A stretch of DNA of 64,000 bases from a virus. Under the pieces are notes generated by a model that saw nothing but the letters and a program-made list of their open reading frames with translations, had not been told where the DNA came from and made no database searches. The translations under genes were made by a program, and so were the position numbers. The DNA is taken from positions 47,743 through 111,742 of the IMG/VR virus record IMGVR_UViG_3300043772_001024; one strand, written 5' to 3'. The number at the start of each line of letters is the position of its first letter. Positions within the stretch are counted from its first letter, which is position 1. Positions 4,901 through 57,002 of this stretch are shown piece by piece.

Positions 4901-5946
4901 TTTCTTACTTGTGCTGGGTAGCTTACTTTTTTATAAGACATCATACCTGGCCCCATCATACCAGGAAACATTCCAGGCATCATATTCATTGCACCAGGAA
5001 GCATTTTAGCTAAATCTCCAATAGCATCTAAATCCCATGTAGCTTCAGCTTTTCTTAAACCACCTAATGGTCCAAACTCATAATTAACATTTGCACCAGG
5101 TATTGCTGTTGGTGTTCCAAATAAAGCTCTGTTAGCTCTTGCAATTTTTCTATTTCTTCCACCAAATAGAAACTTACCATTAAAATTATCTCCCATTGTA
5201 GATTCTTGATATTGTTGATATTCATTTTCTGCTGTTTCTTTCATCTTAGCTTCATTAGCAGTTTGCTTAATTATGGCAGCTAAGTTTTTTTCAGGAGGTG
5301 TAAATCCAGAAGGACTATCTATTGTTCCTCTTGGAGATATGTTAGTTTCATTGTTTTTTACTTCTTCCCCTTGAGCAGCTTTTCTTAATTCTTTAATTCT
5401 CTTTTTTACATAAGCACCTTTGGTTAAACCACCAAACTTATAAGCATTGTCATAAGGCTCTGCATCCATTCCGATATAATATGGTTGCTTAGGTTTAGGT
5501 ACTATACTGCCTGGGGCAAACTGTCCACCTTCTGCATATTGACCACCATATCTTGCCATATCTTCATCATCATCTTCATCCGCACCTTCATTAACAACGG
5601 CAAGTCCTTGATTGTCACCTCCATAGTAATCATAAATAGCAGCATTATCAGGCTCCTCTTCTTCTATTACTTCTGTTGTTTCTTCTTGTACTGGTGTATC
5701 ATATGGAGCAGATGCTTCATCCTCATCATACTCATCATCTCCTAGAAGATCATATTGTTTGTAAACCTTATCTCTTGCTTGATCTCTTGATAAACCAAAC
5801 TCAGCCATCTCATAGATAATAATTTCAGGATCTTTACCTTCTGCAATCTTTTTATTTATTTCTTTATCTATGTTAACAGCCATACCATCCTTGGCTTTTA
5901 CCAGCTTACCTTTCCCATCCGGAGCTTTATATAATCTAACTTTCAT
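1918..5946 (-). CDS. Large low-complexity cargo-type virion protein (1342 aa)
   Basis: The N-terminus (MKVRLYKAPDGKGKLVKA) resembles small basic phage virion proteins. An acidic stretch (about residues 75-130), then Gln/Asn/Ser/Gly-rich segments follow. Motifs such as YYGG, RYGG, AEGG, KFGG, YQMGG, IYGG, AYGG (several copies) and KKGG are scattered throughout. The C-terminus (LTMDQIKAIEAAGGKVEYIK) matches a motif duplicated in the neighbouring 322-aa gene. Repeated NPF...GNAFG(K/T)A(T/S)TG segments occur around residues 760 and 1090-1130. There is no enzymatic motif. Placement after the muzzle gene suggests an ejected internal protein. A GTATATT promoter-like site lies just upstream. The role is inferred. 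Confidence 0.8.
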   Translation of the reverse strand: MKVRLYKAPDGKGKLVKAKDGMAVNIDKEINKKIAEGKDPEIIIYEMAEFGLSRDQARDKVYKQYDLLGDDEYDEDEASAPYDTPVQEETTEVIEEEEPDNAAIYDYYGGDNQGLAVVNEGADEDDDEDMARYGGQYAEGGQFAPGSIVPKPKQPYYIGMDAEPYDNAYKFGGLTKGAYVKKRIKELRKAAQGEEVKNNETNISPRGTIDSPSGFTPPEKNLAAIIKQTANEAKMKETAENEYQQYQESTMGDNFNGKFLFGGRNRKIARANRALFGTPTAIPGANVNYEFGPLGGLRKAEATWDLDAIGDLAKMLPGAMNMMPGMFPGMMGPGMMSYKKVSYPAQVRKKTISTINNAALDEVAKQNPNSTAAQNNKSSKKNEIKCPPGSVYDPNLGYCADQDGNRVRSIVDLPDPEELLGNPFENPNARMLNGKKTMKATGPSSSASSTAASQSTQAQSVGGAPLQSQQTNIPGLIDYGQDWAGDFAKLSKQKADSDKFTDSLYNQAKDPSQYGYMIDPATGEVIKNPKGNDVDQRGLVWSGQYDDDNTNVDESLVWSNPVSQKEYNADPSKYGLDESYIVTNPDGTQSSQLGDSDSHMGWSAVSSEFSPWSDKRTKAEEANQEAFDQKFNYLARIPKDVRAKKYKEINKANGYDIVKPDGSFIKDTAAETTEKEINERKRRLSLNPLATKYYDYYQMGGPISGVEPDEYGNLQKFIYGGDEYAYGGDVLHKAYDGYITNFQKQMNATKNRIDQMGSKNPVDVNPFAGNAFGKATTGMQPSGTVGNRFQPTGQPNTGTTSGRNFDLTKNQGPQSGGYKVGDQITFNQNRDNYGSMGNQNQMAQYMQMMQMMQGQQGMGQGQFSVGRPQRLGFGLTRDFNYSNAFSPVNWQVPEGTKKIREVAYKDRGKWYNPFDTKRVREWYADPEDGAADDLINKQGSGTNINAGTTTTGGEDDEETTDTRTAKGMKLGKNEMLMTNVDVEGNPMGIDSKGRLVNADAESITPPSSMPTRGASQIPSKLSGTAPETMQSQGESAVSSSNPFTGDAFGGNQFGSASTGVQPSGNLKYAESPNNFSMSGQSNVSSNPFGGNAFGTASTGVTGNTNMGRPAASSPSYSAPGEDNPMADPKFVPTPQDYNPGVPPPSSGSNPAYTGEDGLDELPMAYGGYMAYGGYVPEYMAYGGYLPKAKPGITVDKAEFNDPNLIGRTVEQSAYTFNPGQLATDLFSGPTSLTGLTTGFLNARDEGRKMDLAAQRSRTSDAATANTGQSGFGSAERKGSDLMASGNETQYGSTPGKQGYEGGLYGKKGGQMNSQYAKGKVYSLTMDQIKAIEAAGGKVEYIK

Positions 5947-47317: not shown

Positions 47318-47794
47318 TTATGCAAGAATCAAAAAGTGAATTTTAACTACATTGTTTAGTGCTGCAGCTGAACCATTTGGATTTGATAATACAATTTTAA
47401 ATGAACCTGTTGCAATATCTGAAACACTTGCTACAGGAAACCCTGTTGCAGCCTCATCATATTGTACAGAAACTAAAATTCTTGATCCTGCAACAACATT
47501 AGTGTTGTTTACAGTAAAGAATGTTTTAGCATTTGCAGCTAATGTAGATGACACAGTAGTTACAACACCATTTAATGTGTTTGTAGTTACCGGTGTTGTA
47601 ATACTAGTACCCTGAGTTACAGTGCCTGTATTATATAATGTCTGCAATGGAGCAGCATTTACAGCTAATGGTAGCCACTTATCATCGCGAGATTGGTCTT
47701 GTGCACCTACTGCAATTAGAGTGTTAACATCTGTTGGGATTGTGGTTCTGTAATTACCAGCCTTGATCCAAGAAATAAGATTTAAGATATCCAT
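47318..47794 (-). CDS. Conserved fibre-region structural protein
   Basis: A 158-aa protein. The N-terminus DILNLISWIKAGNYRTTIPT, then DKWLPLAVNAAPLQ and repeated TTxVTxNTLNGVVTTVSSTL, end FKIVLSNPNGSA...IHFLILA. I recognise this as a recurrent virion protein type of Bacteroidota phages without known function. First gene of the fibre unit, after a GTATATT motif and a terminator. Confidence 0.65.
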   Translation of the reverse strand: MDILNLISWIKAGNYRTTIPTDVNTLIAVGAQDQSRDDKWLPLAVNAAPLQTLYNTGTVTQGTSITTPVTTNTLNGVVTTVSSTLAANAKTFFTVNNTNVVAGSRILVSVQYDEAATGFPVASVSDIATGSFKIVLSNPNGSAAALNNVVKIHFLILA

Positions 47795-50634: not shown

Positions 50635-50642
50635 CAAATATA
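50635..50642 (-). promoter_or_regulatory. TATATTTG promoter-like motif with near-zero leader
   Basis: The minus-strand read is TTTTTATATTTGTACTATG, placing a -7-like element only 4 nt before the ATG. Transcription from it would give a leaderless or internally started message. Confidence 0.45.
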
Positions 50643-50671
50643 AAAAAAATCCTGGACTGTAACATCCAGGA
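50642..50671 (-). terminator. Terminator of a gene-less mini-unit
   Basis: Perfect 7-bp stem TCCTGGA / TCCAGGA, 8-nt loop, then eight T on the minus strand. No minus-strand gene precedes it within 500 nt, so it must end a short non-coding transcript or attenuate one. Confidence 0.7.
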
Positions 50672-50713
50672 CTTTCCACCCAGTCCGTTGACCAGGAAAC
50701 ACATATCTAATTA

Positions 50714-50721
50714 CAAATATA
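50714..50721 (-). promoter_or_regulatory. TATATTTG promoter-like motif of mini-unit
   Basis: The minus-strand read is TTTTTTGTATATTTGTAA, between two terminators about 50-80 nt apart. A transcript from here would be roughly 50-60 nt. Confidence 0.45.
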
Positions 50722-50722
50722 C

Positions 50723-50749
50723 AAAAAACCCCGGTACATTATACCAGGG
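50723..50749 (-). terminator. Terminator of a second gene-less mini-unit
   Basis: 8-bp minus-strand stem CCCTGGTA / TACCGGGG with one G-T pair, then TTTTTT. A further TATATTTG lies upstream at 50799-50806. Confidence 0.7.
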
Positions 50750-50798
50750 CTTCTTGCTCATCAATTTAGTTTTTAATTATGTCACCATAATCCTAGAA

Positions 50799-50806
50799 CA
50801 AATATA
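50799..50806 (-). promoter_or_regulatory. TATATTTG promoter-like motif, most upstream minus unit
   Basis: The minus-strand read is GTTGGTATATTTGTTC. It would give a short transcript of about 60-75 nt ending at the terminator near 50723, with no convincing gene. Confidence 0.4.
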
Positions 50807-51134
50807 CCAACTTATTTTTAACTACCAAATTTTATAGCATGTGATGGCTATTGATTTTATTATAAGTAGTAGCATGTGATGGGGTATGTATGGATGAGCC
50901 CCACCCTCAGCCAGAATTGGTGGTACCCCCCATGAAATCTATACAGATTAAAACTTTTTGGGTATGAAAATAATATTTTTTGTACAGGTAAAAGTATCTG
51001 TTAACAGTCTATGATCTAGCTACAACTTAGTACTATGATTAGTATAGTATAGTATGTATATAAGACACAAGCACAGGTGGTACTGGCAACCATGTCTATA
51101 TATCTAGCTGGCAAGCAACCAACAACATTGTATA
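50807..51134. other. Divergent intergenic region at strand switch
   Basis: There is no convincing gene. It holds two direct copies of TAGCATGTGATGG at 50835-50847 and 50870-50882 (35 nt apart), a GC-rich island with GGGG/CCCC hairpin potential at 50881-50932, and AT-rich DNA with TAGTATAG repeats near 51040-51058. It separates the late (minus) and early (plus) halves, and is the natural site for early promoters, operators or an origin. Specific function is not shown. Confidence 0.5.
50835..50882. repeat. Direct repeat pair TAGCATGTGATGG
   Basis: Two perfect 13-nt copies start 35 nt apart in the divergent intergenic region. They may be operator or initiator binding sites. Confidence 0.6.
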
Positions 51135-51175
51135 TATACAGCTCTATACTATTATTAAATATAAAATTAATAGTT
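51135..51175 (+). promoter_or_regulatory. TATACAGCT early leader, copy 1
   Basis: TATACAGCT, then CTATACTATTATTAAAT, then the ATG at 51176. First of a family of near-identical upstream elements, one per early gene. Confidence 0.65.
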
Positions 51176-51340
51176 ATGGATAACACTTGCCCAACATGTA
51201 ATATGGAATATGATATAGATATCAATTTCAATGAAGAAACCAACTCATATGATGCAGTTAAAAAATGTATTTGTGATTATATGAACATGTTCTATGAACA
51301 TGATTCACAAATGGAAAAAGAATATGAGTTACCCTTTTAG
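51176..51340 (+). CDS. Small CxxC protein (54 aa), early cassette 1
   Basis: I use the ATG at 51176 after the TATACAGCT leader. The product begins MDNTCPTCNMEYDIDINFNE, with a CPTC knuckle and a later CIC, compatible with a zinc-binding mini-domain, and is acidic at the end. The stop lies in the loop of a small hairpin (TACCC/GGGTA). Function unknown; its position as first early gene suggests host takeover. Confidence 0.6.
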   Translation: MDNTCPTCNMEYDIDINFNEETNSYDAVKKCICDYMNMFYEHDSQMEKEYELPF

Positions 51341-51344
51341 GGTA
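51330..51344 (+). terminator. Hairpin with stop codon in its loop (cassette 1)
   Basis: 5-bp stem TACCC / GGGTA with loop TTTTA; the stop TAG (51338-51340) spans the loop and stem. There is only a weak T-rich tail, so termination may be inefficient. Confidence 0.4.
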
Positions 51345-51360
51345 GCTTATATTTATGTTA

Positions 51361-51401
51361 TATACAGCTCATTACTATTATTAATTATAAAATTAAACAT
51401 T
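51361..51401 (+). promoter_or_regulatory. TATACAGCT early leader, copy 2
   Basis: TATACAGCTCATTACTATTA followed by an AT-rich tract to the ATG at 51402; same 41-nt length as copy 1. Confidence 0.7.
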
Positions 51402-51590
51402 ATGAAAGTATTTGGATTATTTAATATGGTTGCTGCTTATATATGCACCATAATTTGTATTGTTAGTGTAACATATTATGTAGCATTTGAAGCTATGTAT
51501 GCTAATGCGTTTATCATGTCTTTAGCAGGATTTGCTATGTTTATGGTAGCAAGAACATTACACACTGAATGGAGACAAGGGAAGCTATAA
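51402..51590 (+). CDS. Small membrane protein (62 aa), early cassette 2
   Basis: Start at 51402 (MKVFGLFNMVAAYICTIICI). Two hydrophobic segments (about 7-27 and 34-50; AFIMSLAGFAMFMVARTL) then a polar tail (HTEWRQGKL). It is a membrane protein expressed from the early array. Possible roles are superinfection exclusion or membrane remodelling, both inferred. Stop codon inside a hairpin. Confidence 0.65.
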   Translation: MKVFGLFNMVAAYICTIICIVSVTYYVAFEAMYANAFIMSLAGFAMFMVARTLHTEWRQGKL

Positions 51591-51600
51591 GGCTTCTCTT
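51581..51600 (+). terminator. Hairpin with stop codon in its loop (cassette 2)
   Basis: Stem GAAGC / GCTTC with loop TATAAG containing the TAA stop (51588-51590), then TCTTTCTCTTT. Confidence 0.55.
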
Positions 51601-51613
51601 TCTCTTTGTGTAT

Positions 51614-51654
51614 TATACAGCTTTTCACTAGTATTAATCTTAAAACTAAATATC
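51614..51654 (+). promoter_or_regulatory. TATACAGCT early leader, copy 3
   Basis: TATACAGCTTTTCACTAGTA then TTAATCTTAAAAC before the ATG at 51655. Confidence 0.7.
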
Positions 51655-51723
51655 ATGGTATCTTATGTAATCATCAATGGAATTGTAACAGTTAAAGAAT
51701 GGGTATTAAATCCCAATGCTTAA
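51655..51723 (+). CDS. 22-aa microprotein, early cassette 3
   Basis: The short frame MVSYVIINGIVTVKEWVLNP NA ends at TAA 51721-51723. Support is the context: the same leader upstream as six larger early genes and a strong terminator 4 nt downstream, so the ORF fills a complete cassette. Function unknown; such microproteins may inhibit host enzymes. Confidence 0.5.
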   Translation: MVSYVIINGIVTVKEWVLNPNA

Positions 51724-51727
51724 CTTG

Positions 51728-51761
51728 AAGTGTCACTTTAATAGTGGCACTTTAACTTTTT
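51728..51761 (+). terminator. Terminator of cassette 3
   Basis: 10-bp stem AAGTGTCACT / AGTGGCACTT (one G-T pair), loop TTAAT, then TAACTTTTT. Confidence 0.75.
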
Positions 51762-51763
51762 GA

Positions 51764-51798
51764 TATACAGCTTATTACTAATCTTAAATTAAACAATT
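51764..51798 (+). promoter_or_regulatory. TATACAGCT early leader, copy 4
   Basis: TATACAGCTTATTACTAATC then TTAAATTAAAC before the ATG at 51799; slightly shortened relative to other copies. Confidence 0.7.
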
Positions 51799-52017
51799 AT
51801 GATAGCACAGATTATTTTTATTTGGTATCTCATTACAGGGACTGTAGTGTACCAACATGATGTTGAAGGTAGACAAACTTATGCTCTATTCTTTCCTGAT
51901 GGGAAGGTAGTTGATTATGCTTATAAGGCAGAAATCATAGAGTATATAGAGACCGGAACATTTGAGTATGATGAAACTTTGGAAGACAAAGTTACTGATG
52001 CAGATAAGGGGGAGTAA
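51799..52017 (+). CDS. Small protein with N-terminal hydrophobic anchor, early cassette 4
   Basis: A 72-aa protein. MIAQIIFIWYLITGTVVYQH is a likely membrane anchor or a buried strand; the rest is acidic (EYIETGTFEYDETLEDKVTD). Its last codons lie inside a GGGG/CCCC hairpin. Function unknown. Confidence 0.6.
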   Translation: MIAQIIFIWYLITGTVVYQHDVEGRQTYALFFPDGKVVDYAYKAEIIEYIETGTFEYDETLEDKVTDADKGE

Positions 52018-52025
52018 TCCCCTTT
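52006..52025 (+). terminator. GGGG/CCCC hairpin with stop codon in loop (cassette 4)
   Basis: 6-bp stem AAGGGG / CCCCTT, loop GAGTAAT with the TAA stop of the gene (52015-52017), followed by a short T tract. Confidence 0.65.
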
Positions 52026-52030
52026 ATACT

Positions 52031-52069
52031 TATACAGCTTTTAACTAGTATTAATTAAAACTATATATT
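52031..52069 (+). promoter_or_regulatory. TATACAGCT early leader, copy 5
   Basis: TATACAGCTTTTAACTAGTA then TTAATTAAAACTATATATT to the ATG at 52070. It differs from copy 6 by one base over 39 nt. Confidence 0.75.
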
Positions 52070-52342
52070 ATGGAAACAAGAATTGACAAAAGTGAAGTTA
52101 CTCAAAGTTTATTAAACAGAATGAGTTATCTAGATAAACATACTATGGTATGTATGATACAGATACTTCAATCAAGAATAAACCTTCCTGATAGTGCTTA
52201 CACTAAATGGGGTAATGAGGCTTGGATAAGACATGTTGCAGATGCACTTAATGAGTATCTGGATATCAAAGAAAAGAATGATAAAAACATGAGAGCAGCA
52301 TTAGCTAATATGCAAGATGCCTATGAGAATCCAGAGTATTAA
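52070..52342 (+). CDS. Small helical protein, early cassette 5
   Basis: A 90-aa protein, mostly helical and charged (SEVTQSLLNRMSYLDKHTMV; WIRHVADALNEYLDIKEKND). No family recognised. Its stop is followed immediately by the AAGGGG hairpin. Candidate host-interaction protein by position. Confidence 0.6.
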   Translation: METRIDKSEVTQSLLNRMSYLDKHTMVCMIQILQSRINLPDSAYTKWGNEAWIRHVADALNEYLDIKEKNDKNMRAALANMQDAYENPEY

Positions 52343-52365
52343 GGGGGAGTAATCCCCTTTTTTTT
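52341..52365 (+). terminator. GGGG/CCCC terminator (cassette 5)
   Basis: Same AAGGGG-GAGTAAT-CCCCTT hairpin as cassette 4, here just after the stop, followed by eight or more T. The GAGTAA in the loop is no longer used as codons. Confidence 0.8.
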
Positions 52366-52369
52366 CTTT

Positions 52370-52408
52370 TATACAGCTTTTTACTAGTATTAATTAAAAC
52401 TATATATT
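52370..52408 (+). promoter_or_regulatory. TATACAGCT early leader, copy 6
   Basis: TATACAGCTTTTTACTAGTA then TTAATTAAAACTATATATT to the ATG at 52409; 38 of 39 bases identical to copy 5. Confidence 0.75.
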
Positions 52409-52705
52409 ATGACAGATTTTATTCATACAGGTTGGTGGGCACCTACATTAACTACCACTGAAGATCCTTTGTTAAAAGTTATTGAAAGAGACAATGGTGT
52501 TTCTTGGACTATAACCTTTTATGTAGGAGAACACATCATAGATTGTATTAACATGGAATGGTGTCGTGGTACTAAATTAGACAAGGATGTCCTTAGACTT
52601 CCTGTGTATAGTGATGAAGGTATATACTTAGGTAGCCTTGCCAAAAGATTGGAAGATGCTATTAATGTGATGTATCCTGAACCTATGTTCAAGACAGGGG
52701 AGTAA
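52409..52705 (+). CDS. Small acidic protein, early cassette 6
   Basis: A 98-aa protein with a Trp-rich N-terminus (TDFIHTGWWAPTLTTTEDPL) and a SWTITFYVGEHIIDCINMEW strand-type region. Its stop lies in the loop of a GGGG/CCCC hairpin (same as cassette 4). Function unknown. Confidence 0.6.
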   Translation: MTDFIHTGWWAPTLTTTEDPLLKVIERDNGVSWTITFYVGEHIIDCINMEWCRGTKLDKDVLRLPVYSDEGIYLGSLAKRLEDAINVMYPEPMFKTGE

Positions 52706-52717
52706 TCCCCTTTTTTT
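52697..52717 (+). terminator. GGGG/CCCC terminator with stop codon in loop (cassette 6)
   Basis: Stem GGGG / CCCC, loop AGTAAT with stop TAA 52703-52705, then seven T. Confidence 0.75.
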
Positions 52718-52743
52718 GTATAAGGTGCTTTGCACATCTTGTT

Positions 52744-52790
52744 TATACAGCTTTTTACTGCTTGGAGTATTAACCAATAAATTATTTATT
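52744..52790 (+). promoter_or_regulatory. TATACAGCT early leader, copy 7
   Basis: TATACAGCTTTTTACTGCTT then a longer AT tract to the ATG at 52791. It is preceded by a small GTGC/GCAC hairpin (52725-52735) and CTTGTT, a feature shared with copy 8. Confidence 0.7.
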
Positions 52791-53102
52791 ATGAAAGTTC
52801 AAGGAACATTAGTGTCAGTTAGCAACACAGTAAAAACAGCTAACAGTGAGAATGCATCTGAATACCGCACTTGTGTAGTTAAGTTAGCAGACGGTAACAA
52901 CTACTTTGCAAAGATTTGGGAAAAGAGCTTCCAAAGAGGTGTTGAGATTGGTGCTGAATATACCGTTGAGGGTCAACAAGACGGTGACAATATTTGGTTA
53001 ACCGTGTTGAATGGTGCAGATGCCCAAGTTGCTACTGTTGCCAACCTTGGTGCATTGTTTGGTGTTGCACAAAACACTCTTGCTGAAGAACCATTGTTCT
53101 AA
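52791..53102 (+). CDS. Small OB-like protein candidate, early cassette 7
   Basis: A 103-aa protein starting MKVQGTLVSVSNTVKTANSE. The strand pattern (YRTCVVKLADGNNYFAKIWE, GAEYTVEGQQDGDNIWLTVL) and acidic/hydrophobic tail (NTLAEEPLF) resemble a small single-stranded-DNA-binding OB fold, whose acidic tip often recruits partners. Evidence is the pattern only. The codons are richer in G/C at third positions (GGT, GTT, AAC), suggesting high expression. Confidence 0.5.
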   Translation: MKVQGTLVSVSNTVKTANSENASEYRTCVVKLADGNNYFAKIWEKSFQRGVEIGAEYTVEGQQDGDNIWLTVLNGADAQVATVANLGALFGVAQNTLAEEPLF

Positions 53103-53112
53103 TGTGAGTAAT

Positions 53113-53146
53113 ATAGCCCGTACATAGTGCGGGTTATATTTTTTTT
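53113..53146 (+). terminator. Terminator of cassette 7
   Basis: 8-bp stem ATAGCCCG / CGGGTTAT (one G-T), 9-nt loop, then ATTTTTTTT. Confidence 0.8.
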
Positions 53147-53520
53147 ATAAAGGCCTTCGGCAACTTGTTTGTACAGCTTTATACTTTTGTGGGTTGAGTA
53201 TGGTGGAATTGCACAATAAGTGCATACTCAACCCTGTTGCACTGTTTATTAAGTGCACATAATGGAGATGAGTGTGTGTGATGATGTGATAATCTCTCCA
53301 CTATTCTTTGGGTCATATCTAGTGTTCAGAATCTAGTAAAATCCCATATAACTATAGATATATATGGCTACACAACCATATCTATACAACACACATCTAG
53401 TCTACCTTACTATATTACTTATTACTATTATATCTATTAGTATTAGTTAGTGTTGGACAGCAATATCTTCCGGAATTAGTTTTCCGCCACTATATATGAT
53501 TATTAACCTGATTAAAATTT
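53147..53520 (+). other. Non-coding region with leader copy 8, inverted repeat and palindrome
   Basis: A TGTACAGCT variant of the early leader (53170-53178), preceded by a GCC/GGC mini-hairpin, is followed by a perfect 12-bp inverted repeat (53191-53234) and an AT-rich stretch with CCATATA/TATATGG dyads near 53353-53376. Tiny frames exist (20 aa at 53200, 24 aa at 53262, overlapping as TAATG) but lie across the inverted repeat and are not convincing. It may be an origin, operator or RNA element. Confidence 0.5.
53191..53234. repeat. Perfect 12-bp inverted repeat
   Basis: GGGTTGAGTATG and its exact reverse complement CATACTCAACCC, 20 nt apart, with a nested TGCAC/GTGCA pair inside. It would form a strong hairpin in RNA or a cruciform/operator in DNA. 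Confidence 0.75.
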
Positions 53521-53892
53521 ATGATTATGAACTCAATGCACAAAGCTATTGAAGCAGCTAAAGTCTGGAACATGACTCCACAAGAAAAACAATTGTATTA
53601 TTACAAACAATCTCATAGACCAGAGAACAAAGATGTCTTTGATAAACCAAATGACAAAGGTAACTATGGTACTAGAAGAAGATCTAGACCATGGGATAAC
53701 TGTTGGTTTAGTAATAAACCACATATTATATCTCTTACTATAGAAGAAGCAATTAGTAAGCATCCGGATTATATGTTGTGGTGCTACAAAAACTTAAGTA
53801 TCAAATGGTCTGTACATACTGTAAGATTATTTGACAAACTACAACCAAAAACTAAAGTAATGACTGCTTCTACATTTATGTCATTAGTTTAA
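53521..53892 (+). CDS. Exodeoxyribonuclease X C-terminal-like protein
   Basis: A 123-aa protein. The end (ISKHPDYMLWCYKNLSIKWS, then VHTVRLFD) recalls the exonuclease X C-terminal domain and related DUF3820 type (P-x-Y-L-x-W-x-x-x-N). The middle (RRRSRPWDNCWFSNKPHIIS) is basic. No exonuclease catalytic core is present, so it is a stand-alone nucleic-acid-associated domain at best. Start MIM from an ATGATTATG doublet; ATG 53521 or 53527 are both possible. Confidence 0.45.
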   Translation: MIMNSMHKAIEAAKVWNMTPQEKQLYYYKQSHRPENKDVFDKPNDKGNYGTRRRSRPWDNCWFSNKPHIISLTIEEAISKHPDYMLWCYKNLSIKWSVHTVRLFDKLQPKTKVMTASTFMSLV

Positions 53893-54200
53893 ACTAAACA
53901 TTGCAGTTATAAGAGGAAACCTGTTGAGGTAGTGAACGTAATCTTATAGCTGTAGTGTATTATTTAACTTATAGAAACTTAATTAATATTTTCTGTTAGG
54001 CAGGGTGATACCCATGAGTCCTGACTAAATGAGTCGGGAAACAACACCGCTAGGGTGCCCACTCCGTTGCTAATGCCAACTAGAAGGACTTAATCACTCC
54101 AGCATAAAAGCACCTCTGTCACTGTGTATACATACAGTTTATCCTTTGTTTCTCAAAGGTGCATTCACAGGCTTTATAGTAAGGTTTGCCTGTGTTTTTT
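53893..54200 (+). ncRNA. Structured RNA of unknown class with terminator
   Basis: A gene-less 300-nt stretch with strong local helices: an 11-bp stem CAGTTATAAGA/TCTTATAGCTG (53904-53914/53942-53952), GGGT-GAT-ACCC (54003-54013), a 7-bp stem CCTGACT/AGTCGGG with loop AAATG (54020-54038), GCACCT/AGGTGC (54110-54115/54157-54162) and a 3' terminator. Sequence complexity and GC content exceed the surroundings. I do not recognise the class (not RNase P, tmRNA, 6S or a clear ribozyme). Confidence 0.6.
54166..54200 (+). terminator. Terminator at 3' end of structured RNA
   Basis: Perfect 7-bp stem CACAGGC / GCCTGTG, 15-nt loop, then six T. Confidence 0.8.
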
Positions 54201-56892: not shown

Positions 56893-57002
56893 AGTCCCAT
56901 AGCTCAGTTGGTAGAGCGGAACCTCTGAAAATGTAAAGGATAGCCTGTTAGGGCATGCAATACATCAGGTTCAGGTCACAGGTTTGAATCCTGTTGGGAT
57001 TA
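56893..57002 (+). tRNA. tRNA-Phe(GAA)-like with a 35-nt hairpin insertion at position 37/38
   Basis: Complete cloverleaf: acceptor AGTCCCA/TGGGATT (7 bp with one G-T), D-arm GCTC-AGTTGGTA-GAGC, anticodon stem AACCT/AGGTT (56920-56924/56967-56971), T-arm ACAGG-TTTGAAT-CCTGT. The anticodon loop CTGAAA is interrupted by 56931-56965, which forms its own ATGTA/TACAT stem with an inner GCC/GGC hairpin; after it a C completes a 7-nt loop. Anticodon GAA is inferred. There is one extra base before the anticodon stem and no encoded CCA. It may be functional with an extended arm, or a tRNA mimic. Confidence 0.7.

Follow-up and report, generated by a model that had tools for sequence, protein, structure and literature searches.

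A chain of putative promoter cassettes, probably phage-specific, at the head of the predicted early block of a crAss-like phage

Introduction

The question raised by the locus described here is why seven consecutive small genes of quite different sequence should all be preceded by the same short DNA element. The genes lie in IMG/VR record IMGVR_UViG_3300043772_001024, which is 111,742 bp long, and the final 64 kb of it make up the window analysed (positions 47,743 to 111,742; coordinates below are counted from the first letter of the window). A sequence-only reading of the window had proposed that the element is a promoter or leader module capable of turning any open reading frame (ORF) into a one-gene unit. 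Judged by its terminase, portal and major head protein (PHROG matches of 4e-53, 1e-92 and 1e-30, respectively), the source is a crAss-like phage (Crassvirales). The tblastn matches listed for the terminase were crAss-like or Bacteroidota phages at 23-27% identity, and we found no DNA-level similarity to named phages.

The explanation that we consider probable is that the array forms the head of an early transcription block and is built as a chain of autonomous cassettes, each of which would have its phage-specific promoter in front, a single gene or small structured RNA in the middle and an intrinsic terminator at the end. Initiation near the end of the element would give mRNAs with short AT-rich leaders, and the reader would be a giant virion RNA polymerase that is injected alongside the DNA, an arrangement that would allow every small protein to be made at once and independently. 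Recombination behind the promoters would then allow genes to be gained, lost and swapped. Arrays of phage early promoters are already known as a kind, and the present array is a variant of that kind.

Results

The eight elements, e1 to e8, begin at 51135, 51361, 51614, 51764, 52031, 52370, 52744 and 53170, all on the plus strand, and are confined to 2 kb of the 111.7-kb genome. The sequence-only reading had placed the eight sites and the seven start codons correctly, and the repeats are real. When the eight copies are aligned, TACAGCT and ACT are invariant at fixed spacing and are followed by AT-rich sequence up to the ATG. Comparison of 105 distinct copies from 28 loci, most of them from related IMG/VR contigs, gives the consensus TATACAGCT-N3-TACT-N2-T-N2-K-R, about 23 bp long with fixed spacing. 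Positions 3-9 and 14-16 were set by the search pattern, so only the remaining positions are informative; among these, position 19 is T in 100 of the 105 copies, position 22 is T or G in 100/105, and position 23 is a purine in 102/105. The 60 stretches obtained from a pattern scan were mostly single chance matches, and the contigs that were kept had several copies on the same strand. A further pattern, GCCTNYGGC-N6-13-TACARCTTNNNACT, gave 33 stretches, mostly more arrays.

By itself the 9-mer TRTACAGCT is moderately unusual, with eight occurrences against 2.2 expected. When a 24-position profile was run over the whole record, the elements of the array scored 25-34 bits and the best of the remaining sites reached 9.9 bits; the scores of e1-e8 are somewhat flattered because the profile was built partly from them, relatives providing most of its rows. 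Shuffled genomes gave peak scores of 6.6-15.2 bits with the same profile, and because the next best site falls inside that range we regard the element as unique to the array in this genome. Rfam returned no match at the elements, and a minus-strand TD-2 match was below threshold.

The distances from core to ATG in the seven genes are 41, 41, 41, 35, 39, 39 and 47 nt, which agrees with the 35-47 nt first described, and copies 5 and 6 do differ by a single base before the ATG. The downstream motif ACTA(G/T)TATTAAT, which had been attributed to every copy, is exact in e2, e3, e5 and e6 and nearly so in e1; e4 instead reads ACTAATCTTAAA. The leader of e7 is 6-12 bases longer than in the other copies. 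A degenerate ninth element, TATACAGATTAAAACT, lies at 50940-50963 (plus strand), 195 nt ahead of e1, with no ORF after it; a site is present at the same place in the relatives L017 (there a perfect TATACAGCT), L018, L019 and L021. A weak core-like site lies at 51019.

The array region contains 14 terminator-like hairpins where 1.8 are expected, and every array gene ends in one. Counting the elements after the first in this phage and in nine related contigs, with near-identical relatives counted separately, a hairpin lies within 75 nt upstream of 57/62 elements, compared with 1.45% of random stretches of the same block. A terminator thus stands just upstream of nearly all elements, which makes the units promoter-gene-terminator cassettes, provided that the element is a promoter.

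Some relatives carry cassettes of 96-155 nt with no convincing ORF, a core ahead of them and a terminator behind. Examples are L018 4386-4540, L019 4101-4196 and L017 7706-7834 on the strand as given, and L010 ~5617-5747 and L014 ~5543-5669 on the reverse strand (reverse-complement numbering). These non-coding cassettes retain TATACAGCT-N3-TACT-N2-T with a nearly invariant G at position 23, and the translation leader is not kept; in the coding cassettes position 23 is mostly A and the AT-rich leader comes next. Five non-coding types that are unrelated to one another all have an RNA whose first stem starts at core position 22 or 23 (L019, GGATATAATG; L010, GGATAGTAT; L018/L021, TGCTGAT; L069, GAGAAAA; e8, GGGTTGAGTA). 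Because the first stems begin there, we place the predicted transcription start at core position 22/23, which would leave 5′ untranslated regions (UTRs) of 13-25 nt on the coding cassettes. The non-coding cassettes are candidate phage small RNAs of several unrelated sequences, found mostly in one array slot and each with its own promoter and terminator; in several relatives such a cassette lies just after the gene 2 terminator.

The eighth copy had been described as having no clear gene. It is followed by a structured RNA (53191..53300, plus strand; z -3.5; conserved in three relatives), the first stem of which, GGGTTGAGTA/TACTCAACCC, starts at core position 22. There is no terminator between this RNA and the gene at 53521, so it is possibly the leader of the next operon.

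The non-coding cassettes bear directly on the possibility that the element acts as RNA, as a translation enhancer or processing site repeated within one long transcript. Such a leader would suit the near-constant distance to the ATG in the coding cassettes and the AT-rich 3′ half, which resembles other Bacteroidota 5′ UTRs. However, terminators stand ahead of nearly all copies, the non-coding cassettes keep the core and not the translation leader, and their RNA stems start after the core. We consider an RNA-level leader very improbable, and we favor a promoter followed by a 13-25-nt 5′ UTR, since the non-coding cassettes and the predicted start both point that way. That the element functions as a promoter seems to us highly likely.

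The cassettes appear to be exchangeable. Eight close arrays contain 21 gene families, with several alternative slots and a partly conserved order. The e4 front end, a 75-bp terminator-promoter segment from -45 to +30, is identical in this phage and in L017, L018, L019 and L021, and three different, unrelated genes follow it across these five phages; in two more phages the front end is 85-87% identical and two additional genes stand behind it. Because an identical front end precedes unrelated genes, we conclude that genes are swapped behind fixed promoters, and the likeness of terminator, promoter and leader at every junction would account for the turnover. Gene 4 has its own promoter in six relatives. 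In this phage it comes straight after the front end downstream of the microprotein gene, an arrangement that would result if two promoters had recombined and the cassette between them had dropped out. The proposal of a transferable module is well borne out by these observations, as the units have their own terminators and the same front end stands before different genes. The absence of the motif upstream of orthologous genes in relatives had been named as an outcome that would refute it; we looked, and the motif is present.

Cassette turnover is strong, and its breakpoints fall within the shared front end or close to it. This could also mean that the repeats serve first of all as recombination sites where gene cassettes accumulate, with expression secondary. 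The spacing, the strand, the single-base conservation (the purine at position 23) and the adjacency to terminators are instead what would be expected of expression signals, dyad symmetry is absent from the core, and ordinary homologous recombination between near-identical junctions can explain the turnover. We therefore give this explanation very little weight.

The individual units, all on the plus strand, are as follows; promoter cores are putative and terminators predicted. The first core, e1 (51135..51158; 32.8 bits; predicted start 51156/51157), has no terminator or hairpin immediately upstream. It precedes gene 1 (51176..51340, 54 aa, family G), the L018 orthologue of which lies behind the same element, and the gene 1 terminator is at 51320..51354. 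Next, e2 (51361..51384; 31.4 bits; start 51382/51383) precedes gene 2 (51402..51590), an ORF for a hydrophobic 62-aa product (family B) found in 7/8 of the closest arrays, with its terminator at 51577..51600. Downstream of e3 (51614..51637; 30.1 bits; start 51635/51636) is gene 3 (51655..51723, family C, terminator 51725..51755), which encodes the 22-aa microprotein MVSYVIINGIVTVKEWVLNPNA and is likewise present in 7/8 of the closest arrays. Compared with c0457, it shows 11-12 synonymous and two non-synonymous base changes, a pattern of purifying selection which indicates that this ORF, already counted among the units by the sequence-only reading, is a real gene. A homologue occurs in more distant arrays. 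An array protein of 103 aa in L014 (~6447, reverse strand) includes ITSIEKVLNPNTGK, which resembles the end of the microprotein, KEWVLNPNA; this motif of a larger protein may exist on its own as the microprotein.

The fourth core, e4 (51764..51787; 28.5 bits; start 51785/51786), leads into gene 4 (51799..52017, 72 aa, family A), the terminator of which (GGGGGA-GTAA-TCCCCT) is at 52008..52023. The next two units are e5 (52031..52054; 31.3 bits; start 52052/52053) with gene 5 (52070..52342, 90 aa, family E, terminator 52341..52360), and e6 (52370..52393; 34.3 bits; start 52391/52392) with gene 6 (52409..52705, 98 aa, family H, terminator 52696..52711). The last coding unit comprises e7 (52744..52767; 25.4 bits; start 52765/52766), gene 7 (52791..53102, 103 aa, family D) and a terminator at 53110..53140; it is followed by e8 (TGTACAGCT; 53170..53193; 28.5 bits; start 53191/53192).

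The array proteins gave almost no matches in Pfam and PHROGs. Gene 7 belongs to a conserved family of 88-104 aa that is typically the final coding cassette. The AlphaFold model, which is of moderate confidence (mean pLDDT, the per-residue model confidence, of 71, with a poor C-terminus), is a beta-beta-beta-alpha-beta-beta barrel, and the best Foldseek matches in the PDB are the oligonucleotide/oligosaccharide-binding (OB) folds of Teb1 (E 2e-4 to 9e-4; OB-A 4e-4), with weaker matches to ribosomal S12 and the single-stranded DNA-binding protein Rim1. On the strength of this model the product is likely to bind nucleic acid. We found no relative of the OB-fold family in the bacterial genome collection searched.

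Discussion

If the element is a promoter, the question becomes which polymerase reads it and when. Structural genes are transcribed leftward, and the array opens a rightward block that continues to the end of the record; the helicase, primase and DNA polymerase genes are also rightward, at the start of the record, which would suit a block that continues from one record end to the other. Few terminators occur in the block downstream of the array, so that part looks operonic. The early genes of crAss001 lie at the right end of its genome (PMC8375218), and in phi14:2 early transcription is rifampicin-resistant and has been attributed to the virion polymerase (PMC10136315). By position, and by analogy with these two phages, the array genes are probably early. 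As in crAss001 and phi14:2, the presumed early block begins at a divergent junction with late genes and the phage encodes a giant virion RNA polymerase, whereas the early genes of phi14:2 have just an A-rich AACAACTAAAACT-like ribosome-binding repeat before the ATG.

The virion RNA polymerase homologue is a protein of 3111 aa with the motif SGADFDVDK (DxDxD active site). It has local matches to crAss001 gp50 (4e-9) and phi14:2 g066 (5e-8), and the active-site motif SGxDFD(V/I)DK is common to all three proteins. In 6 of the 16 records searched, all six bearing the element and at least 80 kb long, the polymerase is present at 55-85% identity; the fragment search gave no match in the other ten, which are mostly short, although one is 80.5 kb. 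The polymerases of crAss001 and phi14:2 are far more distant, and we did not see the element in the stretches scanned of these phages (best profile scores 12.5 and 10.2 bits, respectively; crAss001 was scanned with the profile alone). The element thus lies upstream of genes that are early by position and is conserved in relatives that encode the polymerase. Because relatives with the element carry it and the distant crAss001 and phi14:2 lack the element, we lean slightly towards the injected virion polymerase as the reader. The pattern fits promoter-polymerase co-evolution without proving it.

Several points weigh against this assignment. Shared ancestry alone could account for the co-occurrence of element and polymerase, and the phage could instead rely on the host enzyme together with a phage factor or a sigma not yet described. 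The remainder of the rightward block is without the element; to cover it, the model requires either read-through from e8 or a different class of promoter. In phi14:2, the best studied of these phages, we found no equivalent repeat before the early genes.

The elements could be promoters for the host RNA polymerase acting with an alternative sigma, or with a specificity factor made by the phage or carried in the virion; the early genes of many phages use the host enzyme, and ordinary intrinsic terminators (GC-hairpin and U-tract) flank the units. However, the Bacteroidota primary-sigma box, TAnnTTTG (PMC9723704), is absent within 80 nt upstream of all seven array genes, and the elements do not have the arrangement of a primary-sigma promoter, with TAnnTTTG about 7 nt before the start and TTG at -33. 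By eye, they also do not match the Flavobacterium sigma-54 (-24/-12) or extracytoplasmic function (ECF; CGT at -10) motifs (PMC9723704), and we found no Sigma70_r4 domain in the phage. A promoter of normal host type is present at the same junction on the opposite strand. The string TTTG/TTG-N18/19-TAnnTTTG is conserved in position, 303-306 nt from e1, in this phage and in L017, L018 and L021; its form here is TTTG-N19-TATATTTG (50799..50829, minus strand), and it would serve the leftward block. Because host-type strings are not above chance genome-wide, it is the conservation of position that carries the argument. We regard transcription of the array by the host enzyme as possible and rather unlikely.

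Sigma-70-type promoters were fewer than in shuffles and were rejected as candidates. No T7-like polymerase was matched, and the control genomes likewise gave none, so its absence is not shown. Behind the divergent promoter (50640-50830, minus strand), two strong terminator-like hairpins (50757-50721 and 50677-50644) precede the first leftward gene, which suggests a short RNA or an attenuated leader; parts of this region are conserved in relatives.

In the open literature we found no published DNA signal for a crAss-like virion polymerase, and a review of Crassvirales does not contain the word "promoter". The element is the first concrete candidate that we have found for the DNA signal of crAss-like phages' own RNA polymerase, and it is an exact one, 23 bp with a predicted start base. 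The array also suggests how such phages may build blocks of short genes of unknown function, by keeping a promoter-terminator chassis fixed and exchanging within it small RNAs and genes, one of them for a 22-aa protein, and the same logic may be useful for locating host-takeover genes and phage small RNAs.

The sequence just upstream of the core raises the possibility of a second component. A hairpin of 3-5 bp with a T-N-C/T loop ends 6-13 nt upstream of 47 of the 105 elements, compared with 0.9% of random positions, and a longer hairpin, usually the terminator, is found at another 40/105 (6% at random). The mini-hairpin stems vary and complementarity is kept (GCC/GGC, GTGC/GCAC, TGCT/AGCA). 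At e7 and e8, where the terminator stands some 30 nt ahead of the core, the mini-hairpin occupies the intervening DNA: GTGC-TTT-GCAC at 52725..52735, 8 nt upstream of e7 (GTGC-TTC-GCAC in relatives), and GCC-TTC-GGC at 53153..53161, 8 nt upstream of e8. A hairpin in this position should be in neither transcript and may therefore act as DNA. The early promoters of coliphage N4 follow a C(GNA)G rule for the template-strand loop. It is conceivable, although we think it doubtful, that the promoter is composite, with an extruded mini-hairpin (a template C(GNA)G triloop, as in N4) joined to the TATACAGCT-N3-TACT core, the preceding terminator hairpin acting as a stand-in elsewhere and the OB-fold protein serving as a single-strand-binding activator. 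If so, two unrelated virion polymerases would have converged on the same promoter trick. The hairpin-to-core spacer varies from about 1 to 13 nt, e1 has no hairpin, the fixed hairpin-to-start distance of the N4 type is not found, and the predicted DNA stability of the mini-hairpins is small (-1.3 to -2.6 kcal/mol).

Three known systems are useful for comparison. The N4 early promoters are read by a virion RNA polymerase and have a template-strand hairpin with a 3-nt loop (PMC4496689). Similarly, many of our elements have an upstream GCC-TNC-GGC with a 3-nt loop (template GCC-GNA-GGC), and the array encodes a predicted OB-fold protein; unlike in N4, the hairpin spacing varies, one copy is hairpin-less and the hairpin is separated from the predicted start by a long core of specific sequence. 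The N4 enzyme is T7-like and unrelated to the crAss enzyme. In the Thermus phage P23-45, the virion RNA polymerase reads pre-early promoters that are AT-rich (PMC10770324). Its start sites were mapped whereas ours are predicted; unlike in P23-45, each unit of the array has one gene and a terminator to itself, the units pass from phage to phage, and small RNA genes are among them. The start-associated sequences (SAS and extended SAS, ESAS) of Cluster K mycobacteriophages are GGGATAGGAGCCC-type repeats that abut the start codon (PMC3203893). Like the present element, they are short, asymmetric, mostly in one orientation, upstream of small genes of various families and conserved across relatives. 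In contrast to GGGATAGGAGCCC, the element is unrelated in sequence, has a terminator ahead of it, and has a core that ends at the predicted start, 13-25 nt before the ATG.

Two further features lie downstream in the rightward block. At 56893-57002 (plus strand) there is a 110-nt Rfam tRNA match that was not reported by ARAGORN and is possibly a tRNA with an insert. Between the genes at 53521 and 54227 is a conserved structured non-coding region (53898-54200, plus strand) with no Rfam match. Pieces of it are ~81-100% identical in L018, L019 and L021, with ~200 extra nt in L019, and its first part is 92% identical in L096.

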